A DNA stretch of 64,000 bases, from assembly GCA_943737045.1 (NCBI GenBank), contig CALSFV010000018.1, positions 372,001 through 436,000 on the forward strand, given 5' to 3'. A program made the translations under genes and the position numbers. A model generated the notes under the pieces. That model searched no databases, had not been told where the DNA came from, and saw only the letters and a list, made by a program, of their open reading frames with translations. Positions 5,285-42,921 of the stretch are shown here, piece after piece. Source of the stretch: Parapristionchus giblindavisi (taxonomy: Eukaryota > Nematoda > Chromadorea > Rhabditida > Diplogasteridae). How positions within the stretch are numbered: position 1 is the stretch's first letter; each line of letters starts with the position of its first letter.

Positions 5285-6795
5285 ATGTCGGAGGATGAGG
5301 ACTTTCCTGGTTTCTTTATCATGGAGACAATCATCTTCTATGTATATGGGCATGACAGTAAACGCTGTGACTATTCCTTTCTATACTCTGGTTATCTTTA
5401 TATTGATCTTCGACGGATCCAAAGATGGACTAAACAACAATGGATTCTATCGCATTTACGCTGTAAGCCTAAATTAGTAATACTTCTACGATATCTATGT
5501 TCTTTTCATATGTGGTAAAGACGAAAAAATGGTTTTACAACGAAATAATTGGTATTATAAGATAAATGAAAAGATCGATCAAGATGATTTTTTAGATTGG
5601 TGGAGTGATCGATATCACCTACATTTTGTTCAATTACTTCAGCTGCATATTTCCTGGAAGAGGCTGGTTTCTGTTGTATTCAGAGGATTATTTATCTGCT
5701 GGCTGTTTTGTAAGTGCCTCTTAATTCATTCATATGCTGTTAGTTTGTGAGCGGCCGTCTCATAACGTAATATATGAAAATCTCATTATAATAAGTTCAA
5801 AGCTATATTCTCGATATCTGATTATGCAAAAATCTTAATCCAGTACCCCTTTGGAACGGGCTGTTTTATATTTCATTCAGAAGATGATTTATGTAGCGGT
5901 TGCAAACTTAGCATCATACAGTGATTTTTCACTATTGGTTGATCGGAACTGACTTATCAAACGAAATTACGCAAGAATGAGCCATATTATACTTATTCTT
6001 TTTTATCTTTACTTTTTGCAGATTCTGACTAGAGAACATAAAAACAAGAATAAATGTGGTATTTCCACAATAAATAACACTTTTCTAATCATGTTAAACT
6101 AATGAACAAAAATCGTTAGCATTTTCCCTTGTTTTTTTCCTTTTTTATTTACAAAAATAAAGATGAAAAGAGTGAATGAAAACCAATATGACTCATGCTT
6201 TAGATATTCCGTTTGATCTAGATGATTACATTAGTTCAACTATTAATGAAAATTAATTGCATATTCACAAAGCAGAGTGGGAAATTTGACTTGTTCGAGT
6301 ATCGATTCGTCATATAAAAGGACTTTGAGGTGTGCTGTGCTTGCGGAAGGTTTTCTCGATACGGTCAAGTGTGTGTGCAATGGCTATGAATCGTTTGACA
6401 GTCGTTGTCTGGCCCTTCAAATATCATATAGTATTTGTTTATTTATTCTGTTGTACCGAGAATTCGAAGAGAAATTTCCATGAGTGGTCATTATAATCTC
6501 TTTTTAAGTGGTGGACGAATAAAGTGTGTTGGATCATAAACTTTCTTCAAGTATTTCCACCGTTTATTCTCGGCTGCGTCATCCTCACCACTTTAATTGT
6601 ACCATTGCCCAATTCACTCGGAGGATACTATTGTGTCGTTCGTTTACACGTTCTCTCATTCTGCCCTGTATATGAAAATCTCCATGAAGCTTGGCTGACC
6701 GCTTCTCTAGTAAACGTGACGGTACAACCTTCTATTGAGTTATTGTCACGTATTCTCCTTCTAAAAAAGCTGACGTTACTTTTGCTATCAAACTA

Positions 6796-7386
6796 CCGTC
6801 AAAACGAAAAAAAGTGAAACATTTGTCAAATAATTTGACAAAATTTGACAAAAGTTCACAAGATTCCCATTTTTAGCATTTTTCATGATCTTGATGATGT
6901 TTTATCTCAGATTTTGTTTTGTAGATGTGTTTGCCCAATCCAGATAGGCACGGCAAAAGTGAAAAAATTAATCAGGAGCATTGCGGAGCAGAATTGGTAT
7001 ACTGTAGCATACTGTAGAATCTTACTGTAAAACTGCTTCCATCGCTCTTTTTTCGTCTAATCATGGATATAAATAGCATTACCTGACTTCCTATAGCGAA
7101 TATGCACTGTTTGGATCATGTCGTAGATCAGACTGCAAAAGTGGTATACTGTAGAAAATCCTACCGTATACCAGTTTCACAAAACAGCGTTCACAGTGAT
7201 TCATTTAAATTTTTTTGTTCATAGGTCAAATAGGCAAGCCCAGTGATGCTCAAATACCCTATTGTCTATTTAAAAAATAGCAACCGCGTTTAGATATCAT
7301 GATTCAAAATTTTCAAAATCTTGTGAACTTTTGTCAAATTTTGTCAAATTATTTGACAAATGTTTCACTTTTTTTCGTTTTGACGG
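6796..7386 (+). mobile_element. 591-bp MITE with about 70-bp TIRs and TA duplication
   Basis: The left end CCGTCAAAACGAAAAAAAGT continues through GTGAAACATTTGTCAAATAATTTGAC to a TTCACAAGAT block; the right end is its reverse complement ending ACTTTTTTTCGTTTTGACGG. Both sides are flanked by TA. The interior repeats TATACTGTAG-type words. It sits in intron 4 of the receptor pseudogene. A second copy of the same family at 25832-26280 plus 42823-42921 is split by the 16.5-kb palindrome, and this unbroken copy supplies the pre-insertion sequence for that event. Confidence 0.85.
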
Positions 7387-8129
7387 TATTTGTCAAGATT
7401 GATGGATAAGGTCTCATTATTGGTCTTTTAATCTAGATCATCTGATCAGAGTGGAGAATTTAAGATGGATCCTTTAAAGGCACATACAGATTTAATTTTC
7501 CACTACGCTCTGACAACGCTCTATCGCAGACACACAACCGAATTTTATTTTCAGTTTGTTGATACCGAATTTGCTAACTTATGGCACAAGGTAGCGTTAT
7601 ATGTGCAGTGGACCTTTGTGACATATTTGATCATTAATTACGCTGTAGTTACGAGGATGTTTAATAAGCACTTCTCGAAGGTACATAAACACAATAATTT
7701 CATTATATTTCTCATATTATTTTTTGTTCACGAGAGATTAGTCGTCCCATTCTATTGAAGGACGTCGGTGATCGAATCAGACAAGACAATAAATTGCTCA
7801 AGATTTCTGTTATCACCTGTATCACTGAGGTAATCATCTAATATAACCTGAAATTGAAATTTGTCAATGAAGAAATGATTAGAAAATTTCTCACATTCTT
7901 TAAAATTCTATATTTTCTATACTTGAACTAGCGCGAACTACGTTCGCGCCTCAGAGAGTTTTGCGCATATTTATCTTAATCGTCATCTCAACTACGTTAG
8001 CCTAATGCTTCTCGGCCGTTTTTATCGAATTTGGTACAGTAAGGGTGGGTTACGGCAGTTGAAGATATTCTAGAAAAGTCAATACCGCTGAGTCACACAA
8101 GGAGGCAAAGAACGGAATTTTAATCGCAA

Positions 8130-8695
8130 GTTTGAAAAATAAAGTCAGTTTGCGTTAACGTAGTACTACGGTAGATGGGTTACGGTAGCTGAAAATGATC
8201 TAGAAAAATTTGTCATGTCGTTTTACACAAGGACGAACCAAGCAAGGAATTTTAATCGCAAGTTTGAAAAATAAAGTCAGTTTGCGTTAACGTAGTACTA
8301 CGGTAGATGGGTTACGGTAGCTGAAAATATTCTAGAAAAATTTGTCTCGTCGAGTTACCCGAGGAGGGACGAAGCACGGAATTTATAACGCAGGTTTGAA
8401 AAATAAAGTCAGTTTGCGTTAACGTAGTACTACGGTAGCTGGGTTAGGGTAGCTGAAAATGGTTTAGAAAAATTTGTCTTGTCGAGTTACACAAGGATTG
8501 GCCAAGCACGGATTTTTTATAGCAAGTTTGAAAAATAAAGTCAGTTTGCGTTAACGTAGTACTACGGTAGGTGGGTTACGGTAGCTGAAAATGGTCTAGA
8601 AAAATTTGTCATGTCGGTATACTCAAGAAATTACCAAGCACGGAATTTATAACGCAAGTTTGAAAAATAAAGTCAGTTCACGATAACTGAAAATC
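8130..8695 (+). repeat. tandem repeat, about five degenerate units of about 130 bp
   Basis: Each unit contains GAAAAATAAAGTCAGT, then TTGCGTTAACGTAGTACTACGG, then GGTTACGGTAGCTGAAAAT and TCTAGAAAAATTTGTC. Repeat starts are near 8137, 8265, 8397, 8529 and 8662; the last unit is truncated and a related half-unit precedes the first at 8045. The core ACGTAGTACT is close to a perfect palindrome. It lies in an intron of the receptor pseudogene. Confidence 0.75.
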
Positions 8696-10858: not shown

Positions 10859-13800
10859 ATGTCGACAAATTTTCAATCGTCGATAACATCTTCAATCGAT
10901 GATTCTTCCTTCGGTATCCTTGAGACCTACGTTACTTGGGAGGATGTGGAAAGAAGAATGAGAGAGGCATTGCATACATCAGCCAAGTTTGGTCCCAACA
11001 AGAGTGTCATGCATATTGGAGAAAGAAATGTGAGTAACTATTAGTTATTTGGTTAGCTATAAGGGAACGTTTAGTTTTTGTGAATAAATGAGTTTTAGTG
11101 AGCAATGTTTTTGTTAACAAGTTGTAAGGGAGAAAGTTTTATAGTTTAAGACACCGGCTCGGTAAGATTCGAGGGTTGAGCCAGTGACCCCGGACATCGA
11201 CCTCACCGATTTGGCTCAAAATTTTTGTGTGGATACCCCCATGGTCCCCCATCACAAAATGGGTATTCATTTGGGTTGGGCCCTTGAAACATAAATGTGG
11301 CGGGTTCTCGAAATTTGAAAACTCGATTTTCACCAAAAAAAAGTGGAGCGACCTAGGTTCAATGTTAGTGTCGGTTAATTACAAGTATGCCTAGACAACA
11401 AAAACTCGCTATAGGACGGTTCGGATATCCGATCGCAAACTGATTTTTCCACCTCCTCAATACACATTAAAATTAATTAAAATTTTAAATTACAAAATCG
11501 CACAATTATTTTTGCCTTATCTTATAGAGCAAAAAATTCCGCGTCGAATGAGGCTAAAAATTAAAAAAATCGATAAACCCCTATTTTGAGAAAAATGGGC
11601 TTGACCATGACTCGAAAATATTTTTGTTTTTAAAACCCCTCATGTTTGTACTCATATTGACGAGCTCGTCGAGTAGAACAACCTTCATGTTGAACGTTTT
11701 ATCTGAAACTCATGTACAAGAGAGTTTCACACGTTTTCCTGCAATTTTGAGTAAAACGAAAATAAAATATTTTTAAAACAAAAAAGCGCAGTCCAATTTT
11801 TGCCTCATCTTATAGAGCACAAAAATTCCGCTTCGAATGAGGGTAAAAAATAAAAAATCGATTGACCCCTATTTTGAGAAAAATGGGCCTGACCATGACT
11901 CGAAAATATTTTTGTTTTTAAACCCCCTCATGTTTGTGCTCTTATTGAAGATGTTTTTGAGTAGAACAACTTTCGCATTGGACATTTTGTCTGAAACTCA
12001 TGTACAAGAGAGATACACACGATTTTGTGACCAATTTTGAGTTAAGCGAAATAAAAATATTTTTTTTCAAAATCGTGTGTATCTCTCTTGTACATGAGTT
12101 TCAGACAAAACGTTCAACATGAAAGTTGTTCTACTCGACGAGCTCTTCAATATGAGTACAAACGTGAGGGGATTTAAAAACAAAATTTTTTCGAGTCATG
12201 GTCAGGCCCATTTTTCTCAAAATAGGGGTTTATCGATTTTTTATTTTTTACCCTCATTCGACGCGGAATTTTTTGCTCTATAAGATGAGGCAAAAATTGG
12301 ACTGCGCTTTTTTGTTTTAAAAATATTTTATTTTCGTTTTACTCAAAATTGCAGGAAAACGTGTGAAACTCTCTTGTACATGAGTTTCAGATAAAACGTT
12401 CAACATGAAAGTTGTTCCACTCGACGAGCTATTCAATATGAGTACAAATATGGGGGGTTTTAAAAACAAAAATATTTTCGAGTCATGGTCAGGCCCATTT
12501 TTCTCAAAATAGGGGTCTATCGATTTTTTAATTTTCAGCCTCATTCGACGCGGAATTTTTTGCTCTATAAGATAAGGCAAAAATAATTGTGCGATTTTGT
12601 AATTTAAAATTTTAATTAATTTTAATGTGTTTTGAGGAGGTAAAAAAAATCAGTTTGCGATCGGATATCCGAACCGTCCTATAGCGAGATTTTGTTGTCT
12701 AGGCATGCTTGTAATTAATCGACACTAACATTGAACCTAGGTTGCTCCACTTTTTTTTGGCGAAAATCGAGTTTTCAAATTTCGAGAACCCGCCACATTT
12801 ATGTTTCAAGGACCCAGCCCAAATGAATACCCATTTTGTGATGGGGGGCCATGGGGGTATCCACAAAAAAATTTTGAGCCAAATCGGTGAGGTCGATGTC
12901 CGGCACTACCGGGAGTCTTACTGAGCCGGTGTCTTAAGAAATTTACTTTCAGGGATTTATGAGTCGAATTGGTCTTATCACATGTGATTGGATTAATATG
13001 AAAGAAGGCGAAGTTCTTCCTCGTCGTTTCGCTATCAAGGTCAATTTATCATAGATTCCGAATTGGAAAACAGAAACTACGTCTGTTTCAATTATGTAAC
13101 GGATCTTGGCTTTTCGCGTGCATGTGGCTAATGATCTCAGCAAACCATCCCAGATCAAAAATATCTGATCTAGCAAGAAATACATGCACGTGAAAACCAT
13201 CATTATCGGTTATCCTATTTAAATCTGTGCAACTGGTCACGAGGGGTTCCGACGTACAATAATGAAATCTTTAGTTTATTGTTCAATATTCTGGCGTATT
13301 ATTAGTGAAGTTTTATCCATTAATAACACTCGTTTTTTACAACTTACAACTACCATGTCGCCTCAACAATTTTGCTTAATTATTTCGTTACAAACAGATC
13401 GCTTCTGGTCTACCATCACAAGGATTTAAACTCTCAGCAGAACCTATAGGGGTACCGAAAGCAGATGTAACTGCATGGCTCAAAGAAGATATGATCCGAG
13501 AGGTGCGACGACAAAATATGGAATCATTGATTTTGCTATATTGCAGGTGCACAATTTGGAAGTTGGAGTCTATGACTTCGTTCGCGGAATGAAAGAGAAA
13601 GTGGCGATGCCAAAGTGTTACTATTCTGTTCCATTCAATGCCCAGGCGAGTGACTCTTATCAACTGTCCTTCACTATAACTCTCACAATCTTGCGAATTT
13701 TTTTCATTCTTCTCCTAGTAAGCTTGAAAGTTGAGGGACCACTACCGTTAAACTTTCGGCTGATTTATACTTTTCTACAGCAATAAGTTGAATTATTTGG

Positions 13801-24840: not shown

Positions 24841-26280
<1,440 letters not shown>

Positions 26281-26329
26281 TAAGAGGCCTTAGAATAAGA
26301 AACTGGCGTAGAATGAAAAGAACCAGGTT

Positions 26330-27480
26330 TTCAGCCAAATCTGACAACGTCGGATTTGGCATGCCAATAAAGAAGTGTGCAATGTTGTCATGTGCATGAA
26401 ATTGTACATTTGCCAATATTGATACTTTATTTATTGTCTTCTAGTGAGATACAACAAATTGACAAAAAAGCAATGTTCAATGTTGGCAGAGTTCTCGCTG
26501 CCAAAAATGCATTGTGAATAATTGGCAAGAGGGTGAGGTAGGGGGTGTTGCCAAAAATGACGATAGCCATTTTGTCAGGGACTATGGAGACAAATTTGAC
26601 GAAGTAAATGTTGGCATTGCCAATAATGAAGGAAGCACAATTGGCGGAAATGTTCAAATTCATTTCTGCCAATTATGATGAGATCAGATTTGGCAAGTTA
26701 CATTTCCGGATTGAATGCCAAAGTTGCAATGTTCAAATTTGGCACTAGATGTAAAATTTCGAAATGCCATTTTTGACTCCTTCATTATTGGCAGAAAGGC
26801 TTAACTCAGAATTCGCCAAATATGACATCGTCAAAAATGGCAGAAATTTCGCGCAGTTGATAACATGCCAAATTTGACATCGTCATAATTGGGACAAATG
26901 TGACGAAGTCAAAATTGGCGAAGTCATGAGCGTGCCAAAAATGACAACGTCAAAGTTGGCGAAGTCATGAGAGTGCCAAAAATGACGACGTCAAAGTTGG
27001 CGAAGTCATGAGCGTGCCAAAAATGACAATGTCAAATTTGGGACAAATTCGACGAAGTCAAAGTTGGCGAAGTTGAAAAGTGCCAAAAATGACGAAGTCA
27101 AAGTTGGCGAAGTCATGAGCGCGCCAAAAATGACGAAGTCAAATTTGGCGAAGTCATGAATATGCCAAAAGTGACAACGTCAAAGTTGGCGAAGTCATGA
27201 GCGTGCCAAAAATGACAACGTCAAAGTTGGGACAAATTCGACGAAGTCAAAGTTGGCGAAGTTAAAAAGTGCCAAAAATGACGAAGTCAAAGTTGGCGAA
27301 GTCATGAGCGTGCCAAAAATGACGAAGTCAAATTTGGCGAAGTCATGAATATGCCAAAAATGACAACGTCAAAGTTGGCAAAGTCATGAGCGTGCCAAAA
27401 ATGACAACGTCAAAGTTGGGACAAATTCGACGAAGTCAAAGTTGGCAGACTGTTGCCAATTTTGACGTCGTCATTTTTGG
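26330..27480 (+). repeat. left-arm tandem repeat, about 39-bp units
   Basis: Units such as TTGGCGAAGTCATGAGCGTG followed by CCAAAAATGACAACGTCAAAG are regular from about 26900 to 27440. Variants end GGGACAAATTCGACGAAG. Before 26900 the same GCCAA/TTGGC vocabulary is spread at irregular spacing. Each unit contains opposed TTGGC and GCCAA boxes and ATGAC..GTC half-sites. Confidence 0.85.
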
Positions 27481-28549
27481 CACATTTTTGAGAACTAGTA
27501 ATGTTTCTTATTGAAATGATACAGCCTTTTGTGCACAAGACGCCGAGCGGCCACAGAAAGTGTAACGCGAAATTAGGCCCAAATTATGTCAAAATGGCTC
27601 AAATCTGATTGAAATCTTGAAAGGGACATGAGTGGGTTTCTTCGGAGCAGGCCAAACTTTGGAACAAACGAAAGGAAAATTTGAATAATAACAACTAGTA
27701 AAGAGCAATAAGAACAATTACAAAGACGTTTAGAGTAGCACATCATGATCGAGTTGTGTGCACGCGGCGCATCATTTATTTCGGAGCGAATGTCCGAATA
27801 GAGGTAGTGTTCATTAGCTTTTGAAGTGGGGATTTTCGAGTAGTTTAACACAATTCGATTATGATGCACTACAGAATGTTTTTAAAAACGTTACAAAAAA
27901 GGTGTGTGTGTACACAATTAAAAGAGGAATGGTAAGGGGTTTAGAGACTACCGAGGTCACATAATCAGGTCTCATCGTAGTAGCGGTTAGTCTCTTCTTA
28001 GCCTCTTCTTCTTCTCCTTTGCTGATCCCGAAGGTGCATCGTCATCGTCATTCCTGTAAAAGAAAACAAACATAAATAAATAAATAAATATTGATTTTCA
28101 CAGATCTTGCTCTTACTGGTACTCCGGGTTTGCAGGGTAATATTAGAGTAAGTAGCGTGAAAAAGTAACTTACTTTATACTTACTTTTTTCCCTATATGC
28201 TCATGAAAGAGCAAAACAGGAACAAAAAAGTAAGTATAAAGTAAGTTACATTTGCGCACTACTTACTATGATGCAAAACCGGAGTACCGTATTTTGAACA
28301 CCGCATTTTTTTATTTTATAAGAGTGTATTTGGAAGATAGAACACCTGTGCTTGGTGTGAAAAGGTGCAAACGTGATTTTCAATAAACTGTAAAATATGT
28401 CTCCGGACACGTTTACATTTTTTTATAACTTTTGATCCAGGAAAGCAATCAAGCTGATCTTTTCAGTCAATGTACATACTTTATTAAGGAATACAACCAT
28501 GATGTGTTGGTGATATTACATTAGTTACATTACATTGCGTAGTGGTGAC

Positions 28550-30048
28550 GCAATCGAATTACACTTTTTTGTAAAATTGTATTTCTTTAGTCGGAAGTCC
28601 TGTTCTTCTGAAACATTATGAGAGTGTAGAACCCCACTAGGGCTGCACAGCCAAACAATCCGGAATAGCTCCGACTCCGATTTCAAGCTGTAGCAGGGTT
28701 TCAACTTTGACCCCCATACTTTATAACTCATGGCGCGTTAAAATGTGGTGGTAAACCGAAAAAAAAAGCGACTTTCCGAGTGTTAAAATGCATCCTGGAA
28801 AACCGAAAATGGAAAGTCGATATTTGAATTCGCGGGCGCGAATAATGTGCGGGAATTCAAATTTGCACTCGCGACTGCGAGTTTCCGATGTAAAAAGACG
28901 AAAAGTGAAAGAAAAAGGAATTCCGGATTTACTTTCGTTTTTTAAACATAGAAATTGGCAGTCGAGAAGTCGGAATTTGAATTCCCGCACATTATTCGCG
29001 CCCGCGAATTTAAATATCGACTTTCCATTTTCTGTTTTCCAGGGTACATTTCAACACTCGGAAAGTCGCTTTTTTCGGTTTTCCACTACATTTTAACGCG
29101 CCATCAGCTTCTAGATGTGCTAACGACCCGTTCTAAAACGAGTGCTAAAACTATGCTAGTGGCGAGTAATGTTTATCCCCAGATTATGGTAGTTATAGAT
29201 CGTCATTTGCCCTCAGGGCATAAATTAATTTTTTTTTGTTGGGATGACCGATTTTGAGACACTACAATTCAGAGGGCAGGTCTTCTAAAATTATGATTCC
29301 TGCGGAAGCAGCTTGGACATGTATCATATATTTATTTCCCTTATGTTGGTTTGGTTACGATTCCCTTCAGACCCGTAGCAAAAGTTATGCTAAGGTTTAC
29401 TCGGTTTCAGCGATCAAAGATCGAAATCCAAAGATCAAAGATCGAAGTTCAGCAATAGTGTAAAAACTTTGTGAACATCTCTAACGTGCATAGGCGCTTT
29501 GCAAATAAGAGATTTCATCAATAGAGGCCCAGGGATGAGAGCAGTGAGAGAGAAAGCACAAGAGCGCGCACCGAGTAGACCTCAGCATAACTTTTGCTAT
29601 GAGTCTGAAAGGAATCGGAACCAAACCAAAATAAGGGAAATAAATATATGATACATTGCAAAGCTGCTAGCGTAGGAACCATAATTTTAGAAGACCTGCA
29701 TTCTGAACTGTAGGGTTTCAAACTCGGTCATCCCAACAAAAAAATTATTTTATGCCCTGAGGGCAAATGACGAGCTATGACTACCATAATCTGGGGATAA
29801 ACATTACTCGCCACTACCATCATTTTAGCACTTAGTACGGGTCATCAGCACATCTAGAAGCTGAGTTATAAAGTATGGGGGTCAAAAGTTGAAACCCTGC
29901 TACAGCTAGAAATCGAAGTCGGAGCTATTCCGGATTGTTTGGCTGTGCAGCCCTAGTGGGGTTCTACACTCTCATAATGTTTCAGAAGAACAGGACTTCC
30001 GACTAAAGAAATACAATTTTACAAAAAAGTGTAATTCAAACGAAAAGA
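28550..30048. mobile_element. nested foldback inside the left arm
   Basis: Inverted arms of about 180 bp (GAAACATTATGAGAGTGTAG ... at 28605, mirrored at about 29985) flank further mirrored blocks: a TCGCGGGCGCGAATAATGTG block near 28830 and 28995, and AAAATTATGATTCCTGCGGAAG-like sequence near 29290 mirrored near 29680. A related single arm, in the same rather than the inverted orientation, is at 39370-39490 in the right arm. It is therefore a separately inserted element, not part of the original palindrome. Confidence 0.65.
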
Positions 30049-31876
30049 TCGCTATGTATATCGCATTTATCGGTACGTAATCTAAATTATTATGATGTAA
30101 ATCTACACATAAAACACTCATTATCAATTTCAAAAGTCATTATCAATTTCAAAAGCGTCATATGGGGCCGTGAGAGAATCGATCAAGGGACGGCACAGCT
30201 TGATATGCTCAATTTTTCTACTTCGGATTTAGGACTATGCTTATGACGATGTACATAGTCATTTTGCATATAGTTGCGGCGTTGAGGCCCAACGCCATCG
30301 CATCGAAATCACGTTTTAAATTGCTTCTATTGCATATTAATGATAAAATTAGCGGACTATGTCCTCCGGGGTGGCGTACATGGTTCATGGTTACCCCAAG
30401 GGATAGATCAACCCTTAAATTTTTGAAAAAGTTAGTTACCCACCCCCCCCCCCCCAGAATTTCAAAAATGTCAAGTTGTGTAAGATGATTCAAAAAATGC
30501 ATCATTTCAAAAAATGTTTTTTCGCCACATTCTCCTGAGAACATCAATCCATAATCAAACAAAAATTGACCGAAAAAACCAATAATAATTATCGTGTTTG
30601 CTAGAACCATACGTGGGCAACCTTTGTCGCTGGAACTTAAAATCAGGTGGGCAGGACGCAAAAATCAAGAGGGTGGCGCCGAAATTTTGGCGAACTGTTT
30701 TTTTTTTCATTTTTAGTGAATTATGTCAAAATCGCATACTAAAACTGGGTGGGTTTTGTCGCTTCAAGTAGGTTCCAACCCAATCATATCCAAATGAAAA
30801 CAAAATCAGAAAAATCGATGAAAGGTAAATGAATAAATCGATATTCACCTGATTTCCACCGTATCCGTGACAGGGCGTCGCTCCGACATTGCTCGGAATC
30901 GCACGGCCCATCGTGTCGAAGCACATGCCTGAGTATCAATTAATTATTATAGTTAAGATTAATCAATAAAGTAAGATAGAGATCCATGGCTATCTTCTAC
31001 CGTAATTTAGTTAGTTCGCAATAACCAAGTCCCGTCAGTTGGAATCTACTAGTGTACTTAAAATTAGTTTACGATAACAACTCCTACAGTAGTTCAGTCA
31101 GTCCACGATAGCCAACAGTCGTGCTACCGTATCCTCTACTCACCAGTCGCTGCGTTATTCGCCTCGCCCCACACATTATTCTCGGGCAGCAGAGGGTAGC
31201 TCTCGGGCACGTCGTACGCAACGTTCTCCATGTACCTGTAATACACATAAATTAATACCGTAATAAGCTGCAGTCAAATTTATACCGTAATACGCTACAC
31301 AAATGTTGTGATCAAGAACGCCAATTACTCTACTATAATCCAGAAGATCAATAAATAATAGCACAAATCGATAACTTAATTTATCAATCGATAATTTGGA
31401 TACTTCACACATACATTACATAACCTATGGATAAGCAAGCTGCGCATAGATTAAGAAAGAAGAATTAGATTATAGAAAATGAGGATATTGATGCAAATAT
31501 TTAAGAGAAAATTTTACAATTCCCGAATACTCTACATACATCAAGATAACTTTATTGATCGAAAAAATATTAATTATTGATTGAATAAGTATATTACCAC
31601 TTGAATGGCTTGCACTGTAGGGCAGAGATGTCGCCGGATTGACGGTGCTGGCCGGAGGGCTCTCTGAATTGAATTCGAGAGTGAATAAGATCGACCAGTT
31701 GCATGAATCGGATAGTTCGAACTAACAAAAGTAAACGTGACCTCACAACCGCAGAGTGTAATTGTAAGCATACATTTTCATACCCACATAATGCGAGGAT
31801 CGACCCACTATATGAGGATACACTACATATCAGATAATCAACCAACAATTATAATATTATTTATGTAGAACAAGAC

Positions 31877-33496
31877 TAGCAGTGCTAGGGGGATCCATTA
31901 ATTTTTTTTTACTTCTGAGCGTTTCATTATTATACTTGAAGCACGGGAGGAGCATTGCGCTAGCGCGGAAGGGTGCTGCGCACCCTTCCGCATAGAATGC
32001 TCGAGTCGCCAAGTATGGACACTTTTCTCTTGTTTATTAGACAATTTGTCGAAAAAATATATGAAAAACGACAACATAAAACTATTTGCTTTGAATTTTG
32101 AACGGCAAAATTACTTGGAAGCAGTTGTCGTAAGCTTTTGATTGTTTTGGGGGGGACACCCCCCCCCCAACCCCCCATTTTCTATATTACATGACATGAA
32201 ACTCATTCGTGGACTCGTTCATAAGCTTTCCGACATTGTCTTAGGATCAATGTTTGTCTCACTATTATCGAAAAATTTCGTTGAACTGAATGAATGTCGT
32301 TACAGATATCAATTGAAACGAAGTAAGAGTTAAGAGTCATGCATGACATATTTTCCTGCTCAGAATGACTCAAAACAAGTTGTTTCATCATTCTTGACAC
32401 GAAAAACTACCCTAGAACACTTTCTTTCAGTCAGGAAAAATCAGCAAAAGTTTTGGATCGAACCGGGGTTCGAACCCGCTCGGTGATTTTAGAGTGGTAC
32501 CTCTTTACCTCGACGCCATGGGTTCATTTTGTTTCTAAATATAGTCATATTATACACCAATCGACGCGTAAAGAGTGGGGCTACAACTTTCTTTGCCATA
32601 TAAAACGCGTAAAACAAATTTGAAGATAAATTTACCTTCAAAAACTGGCAAAATAGTGTTTTCTCACCTTTTCGGCGATTTTTCGCGGTACAAAGAGGTC
32701 GTGCGGAGGTGAACTGACATAATTTTTCTAAATCAGTTTTTCAAGCTCTACAAGATGGGCATAGTTTGGTAGAATAAAAAAGGTGCGAAATTTCAGTTTT
32801 TTGAAAAAGTTTAAAATCGACCATTTTTCGCGACCGCACAGCTCCGCGAATACTAAACCAAATGAGTTGGGTCTAAAAGCGAAAAGTTGCGCCTCATCGA
32901 CTTCCACAATTTAGTTTCAGGAGCCGGGACGCGAAAATCACGTTGAATAGGTAAAAATCGCGAAAAACCTACTTCCCGGTTTTCTTCACAGACCTATTTC
33001 GTCATCACCAAGCCCGTTTCAGGGCACGACACTAGTGCCAAAAGATGCGCCGTAAAAAGTTGTTTAACATATGTCTCAACCAGAAAAAGTTATGGGCGAT
33101 TTTTTGAGTTGTCATATTTACCGATTTCGATTTTCGGGTTTTTTTGCTCTCCGTCAACTTCGAACGTTAATTTCACGGCAACCCGTGTTCGGGAAAAATC
33201 GGCAAAAATAAAAATTAGATTGCCCCAAGTCTTGTGGTCAGTTCCATACCCGAACTTGCAATTTTTGATATAGTTATCACCAAGTTCTGCGCCAAAATGT
33301 GCAAAAAACCCGAGAGCCGGCGTTTCACCTAAAAGACGGCTCCGGATCGGCTCGGGACCAGTGCCATTCGATCCGGCGTGGTCGAAAACCTCAGTAGCCG
33401 GAATCTGGTATAAATCACCCAACATCCTGATAGAACAAATTTGAAAAAACCTATCCCAGTAAATCGGTCGAATTGCGATCTTTTATATAGGGGTTA
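31877..33496. mobile_element. 1.62-kb left-arm-only insertion
   Basis: The right arm has an uninterrupted site (GAAACGTCTTGTTCTACATA at 35526-35545). The left arm has the same site split, with only an AC repeated at the junctions. There are no obvious terminal inverted repeats. Near the left end is a strong hairpin, GCGGAAGGGTGC-TGC-GCACCCTTCCGC (31967-31993). Further in are a C-rich run (32154-32177) and a tRNA-like block with a perfect B box GGGTTCGAACCCC on the minus strand (about 32522-32455). A minus-strand open frame of 111 codons at 33425-33090 has no recognisable relative and no proven coding character. Confidence 0.6.
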
Positions 33497-34471
33497 ACGT
33501 TTCAAGAAAAGGTTTCTCCTACGATTTCGAATTCACATTTGTTTACCAGAGGAACAGTATTTAGCAAGAGCTGAAAGTTCATATAAAATCAATATATACC
33601 TGATATAGTAGTACTTTCCATAGTCGTCCATCCAAGTCTTGACTACTCGAACCATGCTCTGCAAATGAATCAATCAATCAGTGAATCAATCAATCATCAT
33701 TCATTCAATTCATTTATAAATGCTTATTCGATTGAAGGAAAAAAAACTCTTCAAATTGACACAAAAAGATCGCTAGTACACCTTGTTGGTTATATCTTGG
33801 TATAACAGTTCAAACTAATCAGAGCAGAAAAAAGACTGAGTTCTGTTCTTCACACAATATTTCTCTTCTTTTTAACATAAGTAAAGCAGGAAATACGTGC
33901 AATAACATTAATGGAACACCCTCAGTTAATTGGACCCTCCGCTTTGGCAACGATCTCTCGTAGACAAAGAAAACGTGGGAGTAATGGCATAGTGGAGAGT
34001 TTCAAATTAGCTCGGGGTGTGACTTTAAACAAAACAACAATTCCCGCCAATTAAATTTCAGCAAACCAGCATGATTCCCTCCCCTCCCATCTAACACTCA
34101 GACGACAAGGAATCGGATAAATTGTACAAACATAGTCTAATAATGTTACATAGAAATGAATAATTGGCTGATGCACATTAAATTTAAAATTATAAAATTT
34201 TAATCAAAGCTCGCTTTAACTCTGACTAGCAATGATGCCTTTGAGAGATACGTACCGTAAAGGACTTACTCTTTCGAATGGAAATGGCGTCGAGGATTAA
34301 GCGTCCATGTCTCGGTTGTCAATCGAGAACGATCCCACGCGTCTTCGTCGTCCATCTTAGAAGGAGAAGAAGTAATTATAATAAACTGAAGATCGAAGAA
34401 CTTTATACAGAACGCAGCGAAAATAAATATGAATAGTTTTCTATTTTTTAAAAACAAAACACGAATTTCAA

Positions 34472-34579
34472 AAATGCGACCGTAACTTACGACTGTGTTT
34501 TAGTCTAAAAGTTTGATGTTTTTCCATACAATAAGAAGTGTACGCAATTGTTATCATGAACTGAAAAGTGTCGTGAAGT
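34472..34579. other. central spacer of the giant palindrome
   Basis: The arms end at CACGAATTTCAAA (left) and TTTGAAATTCGTG (right). The spacer between is unique AT-rich sequence, starting AATGCGACCGTAACTTACGA. Transcription across it would give a hairpin RNA with this as the loop. Confidence 0.8.
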
Positions 34580-35958
34580 GTTTGAAATTCGTGTTTTGTT
34601 TTTAAAAAATAGAAAACTATTCATATTTATTTTCGCTGCGTTCTGTATAAAGTTCTTCAATCTTCAGTTTATTATAATTACTTCTTCTCCTTCTAAGATG
34701 GACGACGAAGACGCGTGGTATCGTTCTCGATTGACAACCGAGACATGGACGCTTAATCCTCGACGCCATTTCCATTCGAAAGAGTAAGTCCTTTACGGTA
34801 CGTATCTCTCAAAGGCATAGAGCATCATTGCTAGTCAGAGTTAAAGCGAGCTTTGATTAAAATTTTATAGTTTTAACTTTAATGTGCATCAGCCAACTAT
34901 TCATTTCTATGTTCGTACAATTTATCCGATTCCTTGTCGTCTGAGTGTTAGACGGGAGGGGAGGGAATCATGCTGGTTTGCTGAAATTTAATTGGCGGGA
35001 ATTGTTGTTTTGTTTAAAGTCACACCCCGAGCTAATTTGAAACTCTCCACTATGCCATTACTCCCACGCTTTCTTTGTCTACGAGAGATCGTTGCCAAAG
35101 CGGAGGGTCCAATTAACTGAGGGTGTTCTATTAATGTTATTGCACGTATTTCCTGTTTTACTTATGTTAAAAAAATAAGAGAAATATTGTGTGAAGAACA
35201 GAACTCAGTCTTTTTTCTGCTCTGATTAGTTTGAACTGTTATACCAAGATATAACCAACAAGGTGTACTAGCGATCTTTTTGTGTCAATTTGAAGAGTTT
35301 TTTATATCCTTCAATCGAATAAGCATTTATAAATGAATTGAATGAATGATGATTGATTGATTCATTTGCAGAGCATGGTTCGAGTAGTCAAGACTTGGAT
35401 GGACGACTATGGAAAGTACTACTATATCAGGTATATATCGATTTTATATGAACTTTCAGCTCTTGCTAAATACTGTTCCTCTGGTAAACAAATGTGAATT
35501 CGAAATCGTAGGAGAAACTTTTTCTTGAAACGTCTTGTTCTACATAAACAATATTATAATTGTTGGTTGATTATCTGATATGTAGTGTATCCTCATATAG
35601 TGGGTCGATCCTCGCATTATGTGGGTATGAAAATGTATGCTTACAATTACACTCTGCGGTTGTGAGGTCACGTTTACTTTTGTTAGTTCGAACTATCCGA
35701 TTCATGCAACTGGTCGATCTTATTCACTCTCGAATTCAATTCAGAGAGCCCTCCGGCCAGCACCGTCAATCCGGTGACATCTCTGCCCTACAGTGCAAGC
35801 CATTCAAGTGGTAATATACTTATTCAATCAATAATTAATATTTTTTCGATCAATAAAGTTATCTTGATGTATGTAGAGTATTCGGGAATTGTAAAATTTT
35901 CTCTTAAATATTTGCATCAATATCCTCATTTTCTATAATCTAATTCTTCTTTCTTAAT

Positions 35959-36150
35959 CATACATGGGCGGGGTACCTGGAGCTCGACTCTACAGGGGCC
36001 ATCCGAACGAAAAATGGTTAAATTTACAGGGGGCTTTCCGCTTTTTCGCCAAATATTTCACCTAAACGTGTATTTTACAGGGAGCATTCCACAAATTTTC
36101 GAAAAGCCCTAATTTTACAGGGGGCACCCCCATGTCGGCGCCCATGTATG
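35959..36150. mobile_element. 192-bp hAT-like MITE, right arm only
   Basis: Perfect 12-bp terminal repeats CATACATGGGCG / CGCCCATGTATG are flanked by an 8-bp duplication TTCTTAAT (35951-35958 and 36151-36158), the size typical of hAT elements. Inside are four degenerate repeats built on TTTACAGGGGGC. The left arm has the empty site near 31455. Confidence 0.85.
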
Positions 36151-37194
36151 TTCTTAATCTATGCGCAGCTTGCTTATCCATAGGTTATGTAATGTATGTG
36201 TGAAGTATCCAAATTATCGATTGATAAATTAAGTTATCGATTTGTGCTATTATTTATTGATCTTCTGGATTATAGTAGAGTAATTGGCGTTCTTGATCAC
36301 AACATTTGTGTAGCGTATTACGGTATAAATTTGACTGCAGCTTATTACGGTATTAATTTATGTGTATTACAGGTACATGGAGAACGTTGCGTACGACGTG
36401 CCCGAGAGCTACCCTCTGCTGCCCGAGAATAATGTGTGGGGCGAGGCGAATAACGCAGCGACTGGTGAGTAGAGGATACGGTAGCACGACTGTTGGCTAT
36501 CGTGGACTGACTGAACTACTGTAGGAGTTGTTATCGTAAACTAATTTTAAGTACACTAGTAGATTCCAACTGACGGGACTTGGTTATTGCGAACTAACTA
36601 AATTACGGTAGAAGATAGCCATGGATCTCTATCTTACTTTATTGATTAATCTTAACTATAATAATTAATTGATACTCAGGCATGTGCTTCGACACGATGG
36701 GCCGTGCGATTCCGAGCAATGTCGGAGCGACGCCCTGTCACGGATACGGTGGAAATCAGGTGAATATCGATTTATTCATTTACCTTTCATCGATTTTTCT
36801 GATTTTGTTTTCATTTGGATATGATTGGGTTGGAACCTACTTGAAGCGATTTTGACATAATTCACTAAAAATGAAAAAAAAAAACAGTTCGCCAAAATTT
36901 CGGCGCCACCCTCTTGATTTTTGCGTCCTGCCCACCTGATTTTAAGTTCCAGTGACAAAGGTTGCCCACGTATGGTTCTAGCAAACACGATAATTATTAT
37001 TGTTTTTTTCGGTCAATTTTTGTTTGATTATGGATTGATGTTCTCAGGAGAATGTGGCGAAAAAACATTTTTTGAAATGATGCATTTTTTGAATCATCTC
37101 ACACAACTTGACATTTTTGAAATTCTGGGGAGTGGGTAACTAACTTTTTCAAAAATTTAAGAGTGGATCTATCCCTTGGGGTAACCATGAACCA

Positions 37195-37384
37195 TAGGTG
37201 GGCACGCTGGGGGAAAGGCTGTGCGCAAACCGGGGAAGGGTGAGGCAAGGCTGTGCGCATGGCTATTTTTTGACGAATTCGACTGGAAATTGTCCGATTT
37301 TTGCGAGGAAAGGCTATGCGCAAATCCCTCATGGGAAGGCAAGGCTGTGCGCAAAAAATATTCGTTTTCACGCGCCCACCTATG
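37195..37384. mobile_element. 190-bp Mutator-like MITE, right arm only (copy B)
   Basis: Ends TAGGTGGGCACGC / GCGCCCACCTATG, flanked by the 10-bp duplication CCATGAACCA (37185-37194 and 37385-37394). Interior matches copy A at 20599. The left arm carries a single uninterrupted copy of the target (mirrored, around 30384-30393). Confidence 0.85.
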
Positions 37385-37899
37385 CCATGAACCATGTACG
37401 CCACCCCGGAGGACATAGTCCGCTAATTTTAGCATTAATATGCAATAGAAGCAATTTAAATCGTGATTTCCACGAGACGGCGTTGGGCCTCAACGCCGCA
37501 ACTATATCACGCCTGTCACGAGAGAATCGAGCTAAAATGGCAATTCTTCGGAATGGACCGAAAATCATGAAATGAGTTAGCATCAGTTTTCGGTACCTCT
37601 AGGCATGCCCTACCATCCCCCAAAGTCCCATTGTGTAAATATCATTCTGGAGCTCCCTACACCGGGTCGGTCATCCGGGAACCCAACTTTGAACTCAAAT
37701 ATCTCGGTTCAGGTATATTTCTGTGAAAAACTACCACGAGGGAATCCCCCGCTATTTTTCCGTGCTCTATCGATCTAAACAAACCAGAGGTCATGAAAGT
37801 ACTTCCGAACAGCGCTCACTATGGGCCAAATAACTGAAAACCTGCCGATTCGGCGCGGCAAAGCCTGAAATATGTTATGTAACTTTTCGAGGGCTACAA

Positions 37900-39040
37900 A
37901 ATGAGTGGTTTACGAATAAAATACGTCCATGGAGACTTGTGGATCATCCCCTTGGAAATTTCCTGATGATTTGAAGTCATTTACGCCACCCATAATCTCT
38001 CGTTTTACAGATGCCGGTTCGAACTGTAATTCGTGAATGAAAACTGTCGACATTGTAACTTTTTGATTGAGAAAATAGGCTTTGTAACGTGCAACTCGTG
38101 AACAAAGTCTCGTAACTGTTTTGACTAAAACCCTGATCAAAGAACCACTCAATTGGAATTATGGAAATGGAACGAGTGATTTGAGAACAAGAGATGCAAA
38201 TCCGAGGATATGAAAAACGAGTCTGAGACCCAATTAGCATAGAATGTTTCGATGAAAACCAACGTTTCGGAACCGAGATTTCGGAACCAACGTTTCGGAA
38301 CCAGAGTTCGGAACCAACGTTTCAGTGTCGTTATCATTTTTCGGAACGAGCAAGGCCCTGCAAGATTTTTTTAATGAGATCTAGAGTCGATCACCCTGTT
38401 GCCCTGTTGGGAGGAACGATTTGCATTATTTCATTCTATCACCATGTGTCTAGCGATTTGCATGTCTACTAGGATTCCAAATCTCGGTTCCAAAACGTTG
38501 GTTCCGAAACGTTGGTTTTCATCAAAAAGTTCTACGCTAATTGGGTCTCAGACTCGTTTTCCATAACCTCGGATTTGCATCCCTTGTTCTCAAATCACTC
38601 GTTCCATTTCCATAATTCCAATCGAGTGGTTCTTTGATCAGGGTTTTAGTCAAAACGGTTCTCAAAGATTGCGTTCCGCACGAAAGGGTTCTAGTACCGT
38701 ATTTCCGAAGAATGGATTCTCAGATTAGAGTTCTGATTGAATTAGTTTTCATTCACGAATTACAATTCGTATCGGCATCGTTTTACACACTCTCTCGCAT
38801 ATTCCTTTTCATTCCATTCCATTCCATTCAACACCGCACGGTCTCGAGCGCGCGGTGCGGAATGAAACATATCGTTTTCTCCCTTTCTCTTCCCTGTATT
38901 TCTTTCACTCTCCGACGAGAGAGTGTGTGAAATGAGAGATTGTGGTTGGGCGAAAATGACTTCAAATCATCAGGAAATTTCAAAGGGGATGATCCACACA
39001 TCTCCATGGACGTACAAACTGTGATCGATTCTCTCACGGC
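37900..39040. mobile_element. nested foldback inside the right arm (first)
   Basis: GGAGACTTGTGGATCATCCC at about 37931 is mirrored by GGGATGATCCACACATCTCC at about 38985. Inside, CCAACGTTTCGGAACC words are mirrored around about 38400, and an ATGGAATGAA/TTCATTCCAT-type run lies near 38810. There is no counterpart in the left arm. Confidence 0.65.
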
Positions 39041-39489
39041 CCCCTATGACGCTTTTGAAATTAATAATGACACTTGAGATTTTGAGAAGGATGAGTGTTT
39101 TATGTATAGATTTACATCATAATAATTTAGATTACGTACCGATAAAAGCGATATACAGTGTAGCCTAAAAGTCATGGGACACTTTTTCACTTTTTTTATA
39201 ACTTTTGATCCAGAAAAGCAATCAAGCTGATCTTTTGAGTCAATGTACAGAATTTATCAAGGGATACAACCATGATGTGTTGGTGTAATTGATTTAGTTC
39301 AGTGATGCGTAGTGATGACGCTATCGAAATAGATTTTTTTGAAAATTTACATTTCTTTAGTGAAAGATCCTGTTCTTCTGAAACATTGTGAGAGTGGAGA
39401 CCCCCACTAGGGCTTCACAGTCACACAATCCAGAATGGCTCCGATTCCGATTTCAAGCTGTAGCATGGTCGCAACTTTGACCCCCAAAA

Positions 39490-40500
39490 TTTATGAGGCC
39501 GTTTGTTTAAGAGTCGGGCAAATCTGGGAGAGGGTTGGCACAGGCCAAAAATTTTGATACCCTCAAAACTTGTGTATAGGGGTTATCGACCATGCTGATG
39601 AACATAGGCATAGTCATTTTAACTCCAGCGGTCCCGCAACGCCTGGGCGGGATTACTGTAAGATCACTTTTTCAGGCCATTCTCGGTCCATAGTCGAGCT
39701 AGAGGTATGAAAATTGGGCTCCTAGGACAGAATTCGATGGCGATGATGGCTGTCTACATCATTAGTTTTGAAAATTTTTCAAAAGGTCGATTATTGGAAA
39801 TTTTGATGGAGACGTTTGCGCCCCAGACGAGTATGACAGTTCGAACCGGCATAACGACAGGATCACAACGATGTATTATGAGCCCATATCTCCATTGCCA
39901 TCTCAATATTGCCTCGATATAGTGATATGCGAAAGAGGTAAACAAGAGGACTCTCTCAATTCCGCGCGCTCTCTCGCACTCTCGAGAGAGCGCGGCGAAA
40001 TGAGAGAGTGCCGAGAGAGCGCGCGGAATAGAGAGACGCAGACAACTCCTCTCGATTTTGCAGATCACTATATCGAGGCAATATTAGCGGTGCAACGGAA
40101 ATATGGGCTCATAATACATCGTTGCGATCCTCTCGTCACGCCGGTTCGAACTGTCATACTCGTCTGGAGCGCAAATGTCTCCATCAAAATTTCCAATAAT
40201 CGACCTTTTGAAAAATTTTCAAAACTAATAAGGTAGACAGCCATCATCGCCATCGAATTTTGTCCCAGGAGCCAAATTTTCATTCCTCTAGCTCTACTAT
40301 GGACCGAGAATGGCCTGAAAACGTGATCTTACCGTAATCCCGCCCAGGCGTTGCGGGACCACTGGAGCCAAAATGACTATGCCTATCTTCATCAGCATGG
40401 TCGATAACCCCTATACACAAGTTTTGAGGGTATCAAAATTTTTGGCCTGTGCCAACCCTCCCCCAGATTTGCCCGACTCTTACACAAACGGCCTCATATA
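39490..40500. mobile_element. nested foldback inside the right arm (second)
   Basis: ATGAGGCCGTTTGTTTAAGA at about 39493 is mirrored by ACACAAACGGCCTCATATAG at about 40483. CTCGATATAGTGATATGCG is mirrored by GATCACTATATCGAGGC around a centre near 39990 that is rich in GAGAGAGCGCGCG. The ORFs seen in it are mirror shadows of each other. Confidence 0.7.
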
Positions 40501-41484
40501 GCGATCTTTTCGTTATAATATACCTTGATATTTTACAGTTTCTTGAAAATCACGTTTGCACCTTTTCACACCAAGCACAGGTGTTCTATCTTCCAAATAC
40601 ACTCTTATAAGATGAAAAAATGCGGTGTTCAAAATACGGTACTCCGGTTTTGCATGGTAATATCATAGTAAGTAGTGCGCAAATGTATATGCTTACTTTT
40701 TTGTCTTACTTTCTTCTTTCTTTATACTTTCTTTATACTTACTTTTTTGCTGCTGTTTTGCTCTTTCATGAGAATATAGTGAAAAAAAGTAAGCATAAAG
40801 TAAGTTACTTTTTCACGCTACTTACTATAATATTACCCTGCAAACCCGGAGTACCAGTAAGAGCAAGATCTGTGAAAATCAATATTTATTTATTTATTTA
40901 TGTTTGTTTTCTTTTACAGGAATGACGATAACGATGCACCTTCGGGATCAGCAAAGGAGAAGAAGAAGAGACGAAGAAGATTATAACCGCTACTACGATG
41001 AGACCTGATTATGTGACTTCGGTAGTCTCTAAACCCCTTACCATTCCTCTTTTAATTGTGTACACACACACCTTTTTTGTAACGTTTTTAAAAACATTCT
41101 GTAGTGCATCATAGTCGAATTATGTTAAACTACTCGAAAATCCCCACTTCAAAAGCTAATGAACACTACCTCTATTCGGACATTCGCTCCGAAATAAATG
41201 ATGCGCCGCGTGCACACAACTCGATCATGATGTGCTACTCTAAACGTCTTTGTAATTGTTCTTATTGCTCTTTACTAGTTGTTATTATTCAAATTTTCCT
41301 TTCGTTTGTTCCAAAGTTTGGAATGCTCCGAAGAAACCCACTCATGTCCTTTTCAAGATTTCAATCAGATTTGAGCCATTTTGACATAATTTGGGCCTAA
41401 TTTCGCGTTACACTTTCTGTGGCCGCTCGGCGTCTTGTGCACAAAAGGCTGTATCATTTCAATAAGAAACATTACTAGTTCTCA

Positions 41485-42770
41485 AAAATGTGCCAAAAAT
41501 GACGACGTCAAAATTGGCAACAGTCTGCCAACTTTGACTTCGTCGAATTTGTCCCAACTTTGACGTTGTCATTTTTGGCACGCTCATGACTTCGCCAACT
41601 TTGACGTTGTCATTTTTGGCACGCTCATAACTTTGCCAACTTTGACGTTGTCATTTTTGGAACGCTCATGACTTCGCCAAATTTGACGTCGTCATTTTTG
41701 GCACGTTCATGACTTCGCCAAATTTGACGTCGTCATTTTTGGCACGCTCATGACTTCGCCAAATTTGACTTCGTCATTTTTGGCACGCTCATGACTTCGC
41801 CAACTTTGACTTCGTCATTTTTGGCACTTTTTAACTTCGCCAACTTTGACTTCGTCGAATTTGTCCCAACTTTGACGTTGTCATTTTTGGCACGCTCATG
41901 ACTTCGCCAACTTTGACGTTGTCACTTTTGGCATATTCATGACTTCGCCAAATTTGACTTCGTCATTTTTGGCGCGCTCATGACTTCGCCAACTTTGACT
42001 TCGTCATTTTTGGCACTTTTCAACTTCGCCAACTTTGACTTCGTCGAATTTGTCCCAACTTTGACATTGTCATTTTTGGCACGCTCATGACTTCGCCAAC
42101 TTTGACGTCGTCATTTTTGGCACGCTCATGACTTCGCCAACTTTGACGTTGTCATTTTTGGCACGCTCATGACTTCGCCAATTTTGACTTCGTCACATTT
42201 GTCCCAATTATGATGATGTCAAATTTGGCATGTTATCAACTGCGCGAAATTTCTGCCATTTTTGACGATGTCATATTTGGCGAATTCTGAGTTATGCCTT
42301 TCTGCCAATAATGAAAAAGTCAAAAATGGCATTCCGATATTTTACATCTATTGCCAAATTGGACGATGTCATAATTGGCACTTTAGAATTTTTCGGAAAA
42401 CGCCAATTATGACAACTTATATATTGGCAAGACGACACTTTGAGAATGTTGCCAACATTGACGGCTGCAAATTTGTCATCTTTCCAATCCTCTCAATTTT
42501 AGCCCCCATGATCTAGTCTGCCAATTATGATCTCATCACAATTGTCAGTTCTGTGTCCACACCCTCTCTGCCAACATTGCATTGTTCATTTTTGTCCATG
42601 GACTGTATTTTACCGAATGCCAATAATGAAGCTTTATAATTTGGTTGACGGTTCACATGCCAAATAAGCACTTTGCACATTTGACAGACAGGCAGCTTCA
42701 ACGAAATGCCAACAATGAAAACGTCTAAATTGTCAGGCCTCTTGTGCCAAATCCGACGTTGTCAGATTTG
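41485..42770 (-). repeat. right-arm tandem repeat, about 39-bp units
   Basis: Mirror of the left-arm array, reading TTTGACGTTGTCATTTTTGG then CACGCTCATGACTTCGCCAAC. It is regular from about 41520 to 42190, then degenerate to the terminal repeat. Copy number and unit order differ from the left array, so the arrays have changed independently. Confidence 0.85.
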
Positions 42771-42822
42771 GCTGAAACCCTGGTTCTTTTCATTCTACGC
42801 CAGTTTCTTATTCTAACCCCTC

Positions 42823-42921
42823 TTATATCATGATTCAAAATTTTCAAAATCTTGTGAACTTTTGTCAAAACTTTTCAAAATTTTTGACAAATGTTTCACT
42901 TTTTTTCGCTTTGACGGTATA
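42823..42921 (+). mobile_element. MITE, right part, resumed after the palindrome
   Basis: CATGATTCAAAATTTTCAAA through ACTTTTTTTCGCTTTGACGG matches the right end of the 6796-7386 MITE, completing the element split at 26280. Confidence 0.85.

Follow-up and report, generated by a model that had tools for sequence, protein, structure and literature searches.

A 64,000-nucleotide stretch of the genome of the nematode Parapristionchus giblindavisi (G000:C18:372001-436000; hereafter the window) carries, at positions 26282-42824, what is very probably a 16,543-bp palindromic transposable element, one of at least 44 in this genome with paired tips, which was inserted as one unit with an ATAT target-site duplication (TSD) and was likely moved in cut-and-paste fashion by a transposase encoded elsewhere. 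The element is an imperfect palindrome with its mirror axis near 34515. It ends in 80-bp inverted repeats, the left tip (26282-26361, forward strand) being of the AAGAGGCC type and the right tip (42745-42824, reverse strand) of the AAGAGGGG type; these are about 96% alike (96.5% for the pair 26277-26361/42829-42745 in a self-BLAST of the window, of which the best 80 of 91 matches were considered). The same comparison gave mirrored pairs at 26733-28398/42363-40528 (87.7%), 30380-31457/37195-36151 (96.2%) and 31449-31876/35959-35532 (99.5%), and the segment 33497-35533 matches itself inverted at 91%. Subterminal tandem arrays of 41/189-bp units lie at 26866-27446 on the left and at 41527-42230 on the right.

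An earlier interpretation made from the letters alone (the sequence-only reading) had described two arms of about 8 kb facing each other across a spacer of about 108 bp, with inverted repeats as outer ends. Comparison of the window against itself, which that reading had suggested, bears out the palindrome, its terminal repeats and the mirroring around an unmirrored central spacer, or core (34473-34579, forward strand), but the symmetry is broken: inverted matches of at least 150 bp make up 52% of the left half, those longer than 300 bp have a mean identity of 89.5%, and inside each 80-bp tip there are about 370-380 bp with no end-to-end match among the matches listed. Furthermore, the left arm alone has an extra segment of about 1.6 kb (31877-33496), placed by the point at which one mirrored pair gives way to the next; the right arm is contiguous at 35532/35533. 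A chance origin of the symmetry is excluded by the lengths of the matches and the many copies in the genome.

The site of insertion was proposed to be a miniature inverted-repeat transposable element (MITE), split by the block with a TSD, and both proposals are confirmed. The left part of the split MITE (25832-26281, forward strand) is 86.7% identical to 6848-7297 and the right part (42825-42920, forward strand) 93.8% identical to 7294-7389, both within an unbroken copy on the forward strand at about 6796-7386 that serves as a paralogous empty site, and the two flank matches overlap by precisely the 4 duplicated bp. These are ATAT at 26278-26281 and at 42825-42828, directly outside the tips. 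At 25718-25832, where the split MITE should have its outer left end, there is a (TA)58 tract. In the 23 elements of which both ends were read, the TSD pair was ATAT/ATAT in 21, ACAC/ACAC in one (C18b) and ACAT/ATAT in one, and the base just outside the TSD (position -5) was C or G at 40 of the 46 ends. Other end strings, read from matched tip-variant strings, are ATTT in C232 and ATGT in C262. A further copy of this MITE is occupied at the corresponding position by element C372, which faces the other way, and this marks the site as a preferred target. Tc1/mariner elements are common in nematodes, and since most ends are ATAT they are compatible with a Tc1/mariner-type duplication of TA in a fixed ATAT context; the ACAC/ACAC pair of C18b, together with the ATTT and ATGT ends, makes this origin highly improbable. 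Because the TSD is 4 bp and includes this pair lacking TA, a duplication of TA only is excluded.

Movement as one unit and likeness of the arms

The genome (251 Mb in 703 contigs) was searched with the terminal sequence, as the sequence-only reading had also proposed. A 34-base pattern for this tip (family 1) matched 60 times forward and 55 times in reverse, 115 matches in all, while a reversed-pattern control gave none on either strand. Pairing was done by eye among 100 listed matches; 88 of these made up 44 pairs with the tips facing inward, which span 984-23,490 bp (median 16,559 bp); 36 of the pairs are at least 13 kb long. A second tip family, AAGAGGGGTTAGGATAAGCCCACCGG, was sought with a pattern built to exclude family-1 tips and has at least 15 pairs of 1.4-21.4 kb, a count that excludes the wider pairs C297 (38.9 kb) and C397 (59 kb) and unpaired tips on C36, C68, C244, C270, C286, C295 and C652. 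When 12 other family-1 elements were fetched, clearly mirrored halves were seen in nine, and C212 has mirrored repeats across 37% of its half. Pieces of family 2 are likewise palindromic: C651 over 4.0 kb at 99.9%, C375 over 1.9 kb at 99.6% and L051 over 2.1 kb at 94%.

Two of the other elements, C28 and C234, are close relatives of the window element. All three lie in unrelated flanks, each with its own ATAT duplications and C28 in the opposite orientation, and their corresponding arms are 99.95-100% identical over 5,830-6,195 ungapped columns. Sites informative for inheritance of the whole unit number 1104 for the window element with C28, 1281 for the window element with C234 and 1244 for the third comparison, with none against in any of the three; part of the 1104 and 1281 sites falls where arms align poorly. 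In these comparisons identity between the two arms of an element is just 79-81%, in part through the forced alignment of unmatched insertions. A block test of the window element and C28 gave 29 to 0 for unit inheritance in the three of ten blocks that could be aligned well in all four arms; in these the arms within an element are 97.7-100% alike. Since the three elements are near-identical arm for arm while their own arms differ, the palindrome moves as one unit, which strengthens the original claim of a single insertion; transposition of whole 16.5-kb palindromes is likely to be recent.

In some other lineages the arms have been homogenised within the element. For C14 and C1b, in the five of ten blocks (700 bp) that could be aligned in all four arms, identity is 99.5-100% within an element and 97.1-98.5% between elements, and the sites are divided 75:0:0 in favour of sharing within the element. 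For C7 and C13 the division is 82:0:1 over seven of ten blocks; all 82 sites come from two inner blocks, and in the outer blocks the four arms are almost identical. It could be that the palindrome is instead rebuilt from one half at each move by fold-back replication, leaving the arms identical at birth. The arms of C14 and C1b, 99.5-100% alike within elements that stand 1.5-2.9% apart, would fit this, as would the different axes found among lineages. However, the tips still differ, CC against GG, within C14, C1b and the window element, about 370 bp beside the tips is unmirrored, and the lineage of the window element, C28 and C234 has retained divergent arms across its moves; rebuilding at each move thus appears rather unlikely. 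Internal gene conversion is favoured because the CC/GG tips stay different in C14 and C1b.

Host sequence at the axis and in the arms

The genome was also searched with the spacer of the window element (40 of 50 candidates scored), and the same core turned up in both tip families, in elements that otherwise share little in their arms. There are 39 core loci. Of these, 33 lie within a tip pair, 32 of them at 0.38-0.62 of the pair length (mean 0.507). Five more (C15, C403, C388, C652 and C703) are outside any listed tip pair. The last, C1:837099-837221, belongs to the host and is an intergenic region between two divergent genes (the core matches C1:835100-839400). One gene starts MDDEDGMESFSIDDRDL and is TFIP11/stip-1 by its TIP_N match (E 9e-6); its neighbour has a later exon, attributed to it from position, with a match to the co-chaperone CNS1 (E 3.7e-5), and this gene we take to be TTC4-like. 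In the window element the match to this intergenic region extends up to 34567.

The two families use the host region differently. In family 1 (the window element, C7 and C13) both sides carry mirrored copies of TFIP11 exon 1, and the second host gene has been lost; in the window the copies, each with a GT donor, are at 34698-34783 (right arm, forward strand) and 34270-34355 (left arm, reverse strand), and the arms of C7 and C13 hold further TFIP11 segments. In family 2 (C375) it is the TTC4-like side that is mirrored and the TFIP11 exon forms the spacer. Opposite sides of one host gene pair are thus mirrored in the two families, and this putative promoter region may have become the axis on two or more occasions; because mirror axes differ between lineages the palindromes are likely to have formed more than once. 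The captured region, which in the host separates divergent genes, is likely a promoter. The spacer is more conserved than the left flank in four of seven element pairs (p 0.00003-0.03), with no excess conservation in the other three (p 0.09, 0.24 and 0.55); in two comparisons of an element with the host p was 0.05 and 0.14. Such conservation could also be explained by the host's own constraint or by repeated capture. An Rfam search of the core gave just one sub-threshold hairpin match.

Gene cargo had been claimed, and it is present as exons of a second host gene, GALNT7/gly-7, which in the window lineage lie behind TFIP11 exon 1. In both arms of the window element four exon segments, with splice signals, run outward and code for a portion of polypeptide GalNAc-transferase 7. 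On the right arm (35375-36759, forward strand) these are 35375-35430, 35745-35810, 36373-36464 and 36680-36759; on the left arm (30849-33655, reverse strand) they are 33655-33600, 31663-31598, 31235-31144 and 30928-30849. The fragment matches PDB entry 6iwq (E 1.3e-22) over residues 406-509, which run from the later part of the catalytic domain to where the lectin domain begins. Genome-wide there are 111 exon-level matches, with inverted pairs at 13 loci and unpaired matches at C212, C56 and C15; the match at C206:253754-257422, outside every listed tip pair, is likely the parent gene. The introns are kept, and therefore capture occurred at the DNA level. The whole exon chain is present and open in nine of the 11 element arms tested, that of C212 being incomplete and the left chain of C1b being split between fetched pieces. 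The ratio of nonsynonymous to synonymous substitution (dN/dS) is 0.17-0.42 between fragment and parent in five comparisons and 0.16 to 1.1, on few changes, among the fragment copies. Because of this wide range, the few changes and the small sample, no function is claimed for the cargo. Followed by hand in the window element, TFIP11 exon 1 enters the GALNT7 exon out of frame, giving E-A-W-F-E-stop, and in C14 there is a stop within TFIP11 exon 1 itself.

The search for a transposase and the proposed mechanism

No transposase had been recognised in the element by the sequence-only reading, and in agreement with this the 49 open reading frames (ORFs) of at least 70 amino acids within it match no Pfam family at E 0.01. 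In five element pieces, 132 of the 167 ORFs of at least 62 amino acids were compared with Pfam (the other 35, many near tips, were dropped); these gave TIP_N (6e-5) and five weaker matches, with no transposase among them. To our knowledge Pfam may contain no Sola model, and for that reason the absence of a transposase match is weak evidence. In C17 (L025 1277-5659), ORFs for a zinc knuckle, reverse transcriptase/RNase H and an integrase-like protein (Phage_integrase, E 1.4e-4, below the curated cut-off) lie between two family-1 tips; we presume this to be a DIRS/PAT-like retroelement. Its 901-amino-acid ORF was considered as the mobiliser and rejected, being the reverse transcriptase/RNase H of the nested retroelement. 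In the hunt for the autonomous partner, 4-7 kb was also read at each of the tip variants C42, C245, C41 and C220: the end on C245 is single-copy, that on C42 is part of an abundant repeat, and that on C41 recurs in a tandem array on C202. This array (G000:C202:2443182-2525620) consists of units of about 2.27 kb, each with a tip-like end ATATAAGAAGGGATAGAATAAAGC, and single relatives lie at C41 and C431.

The mechanism that we propose begins with a transposase encoded elsewhere, which would recognise the tips and insert the whole palindrome at (C/G)ATAT(G/C), a site suggested by the ends and the TSDs; the enzyme may be a Sola2-like DDE transposase supplied in trans. When the DNA is repaired after transposition, fold-back synthesis or template switching would produce the palindromes, a route by which host DNA was perhaps also captured, and gene conversion between the arms would then keep them alike. 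The captured region may act as a promoter transcribing both arms. It is tempting to go further and envisage a clan of transposons that repeatedly becomes palindromic around a captured divergent promoter of the host driving both arms, with gene fragments swapped in behind it and arm conversion keeping the cargo alike; this broader scheme is tentative, and we consider it more doubtful than probable. Under it, arm-to-arm conversion would resemble that of sex-chromosome palindromes, here on a mobile unit.

Several observations weigh against the main interpretation. Twelve of the 100 listed family-1 tips are unpaired, as are several of family 2, and two of the 12 fetched elements, C214 (1 kb) and C17 with the retroelement inside, have no mirrored halves. 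The core is missing at the axes of C1a, C651, L051 and L052, and in the 38.9-kb pair C297 it lies, by hand placement, at about 0.79. Whole-arm counts are mixed (185:75:194 for C7/C13 and 140:160:2 for C14/C1b); the block test is given more weight because unalignable stretches are dropped from it, and the mixed counts stand. An autonomous partner was not found among 46 ORFs of at least 95 amino acids from tip-variant singles and second-family pieces at ten loci (L049-L055, L057, L063 and L064; L056 was left out), the sole Pfam match there being a weak one to DUF3402 (E 0.0055). Finally, in L052 (G000:C423:152670-158537) the palindrome, at 98% identity, does not stop at the tips but continues into the flanks on both sides, which leaves one flank duplicated inverted, either by a fold-back event or by an assembly error. 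A chimeric read would give just this picture, and some copies have arms that are 99-100% identical, as might be expected if two haplotypes or a hairpin read had been joined into a false palindrome. Such an artefact is nevertheless very unlikely to account for the window element: three loci, differing in their flanks and each with its own TSD, hold the same asymmetric palindrome, the arms of the window element differ by about 10% and by the 1.6-kb insertion, and 44 tip pairs are present.

Elsewhere in the window, a separate 1.8-kb palindrome (11146-12937, 92%) has related sequence in L053, an inverted pair of about 820 bp (974-1796/23454-24275, 97%) with TATATAGGGTGATGTA-type ends is probably two MITE copies, and a 132-bp tandem repeat is present in 4.5 copies at 8090-8678.

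Relation to known elements

Pack-type elements (Pack-MULE, Pack-CACTA) carry host gene fragments between transposon ends and no transposase. The window element likewise has a GALNT7 fragment and a TFIP11 exon between its tips and no Pfam match in its 49 ORFs; it differs in that the GALNT7 fragment is present twice, mirror-imaged around a captured intergenic region, and in its 4-bp TSD. Maverick/Polinton elements are marked by a protein-primed DNA polymerase and a retroviral-like integrase. The length, 15-23 kb, and the long inverted repeats at the ends would suit these or some other virus-like giant element, yet no polymerase, integrase or capsid match was found in the 49 ORFs of the window element or in the 132 of 167 ORFs of the five other pieces, the reverse transcriptase and integrase-like ORFs in C17 are those expected of a nested DIRS/PAT-like retroelement, and the TSD is 4 bp; an origin of this kind is extremely improbable.

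The foldback elements, FB, Galileo, FARE and Tm1, share with the window element long inverted repeats, subterminal tandem repeats within them, a variable middle and many non-autonomous copies. Comparison with foldback and giant elements was drawn from portions of PMC3169594, PMC4168063 and PMC6431247. In those portions, Tm1 of root-knot nematodes has composite terminal inverted repeats (TIRs) with tandem repeats, and the long ends of foldback elements are attributed to gradual expansion of simple ends (PMC3169594). The TSD is 9 bp in Tm1 and 7-8 bp in Galileo according to the same portions (PMC3169594, PMC4168063), against 4 bp here, so that the element is not a foldback of the Mutator or P type; the mirrored arms of about 8 kb and the captured host intergenic region on the axis are further differences. 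Teratorn, as portrayed in the material consulted, is a 41-182 kb fusion of herpesvirus and piggyBac with its own transposase, none of which is seen here.

The TSDs of Sola2 are given in the consulted part of PMC3627910 as 4 bp, AT-rich and of the form AWWT (ATAT, AAAT, ATTT), and Sola elements may, in that of PMC10741241, be more than 15 kb long and have TIRs of 11-1124 bp. The 4-bp, AT-rich TSD found here fits Sola2; membership is unproven, as no DDD transposase of the Sola type was identified among the ORFs scanned with Pfam, and the parts consulted mention neither a palindrome nor host-gene arms for Sola2. Among the matches listed in a literature search of titles and the beginnings of abstracts, with most subscription journals outside its coverage, no such architecture was reported in nematodes.

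The family combines foldback with Pack-type features, both of which are kinds already known. Its dozens of copies in one genome offer a test of how a giant palindrome forms, moves intact and stays symmetrical. With a promoter region at its axis and gene fragments beyond, any copy would be a potential mobile gene trap working in both directions and, by analogy with other foldback elements, the family could seed chromosomal inversions.

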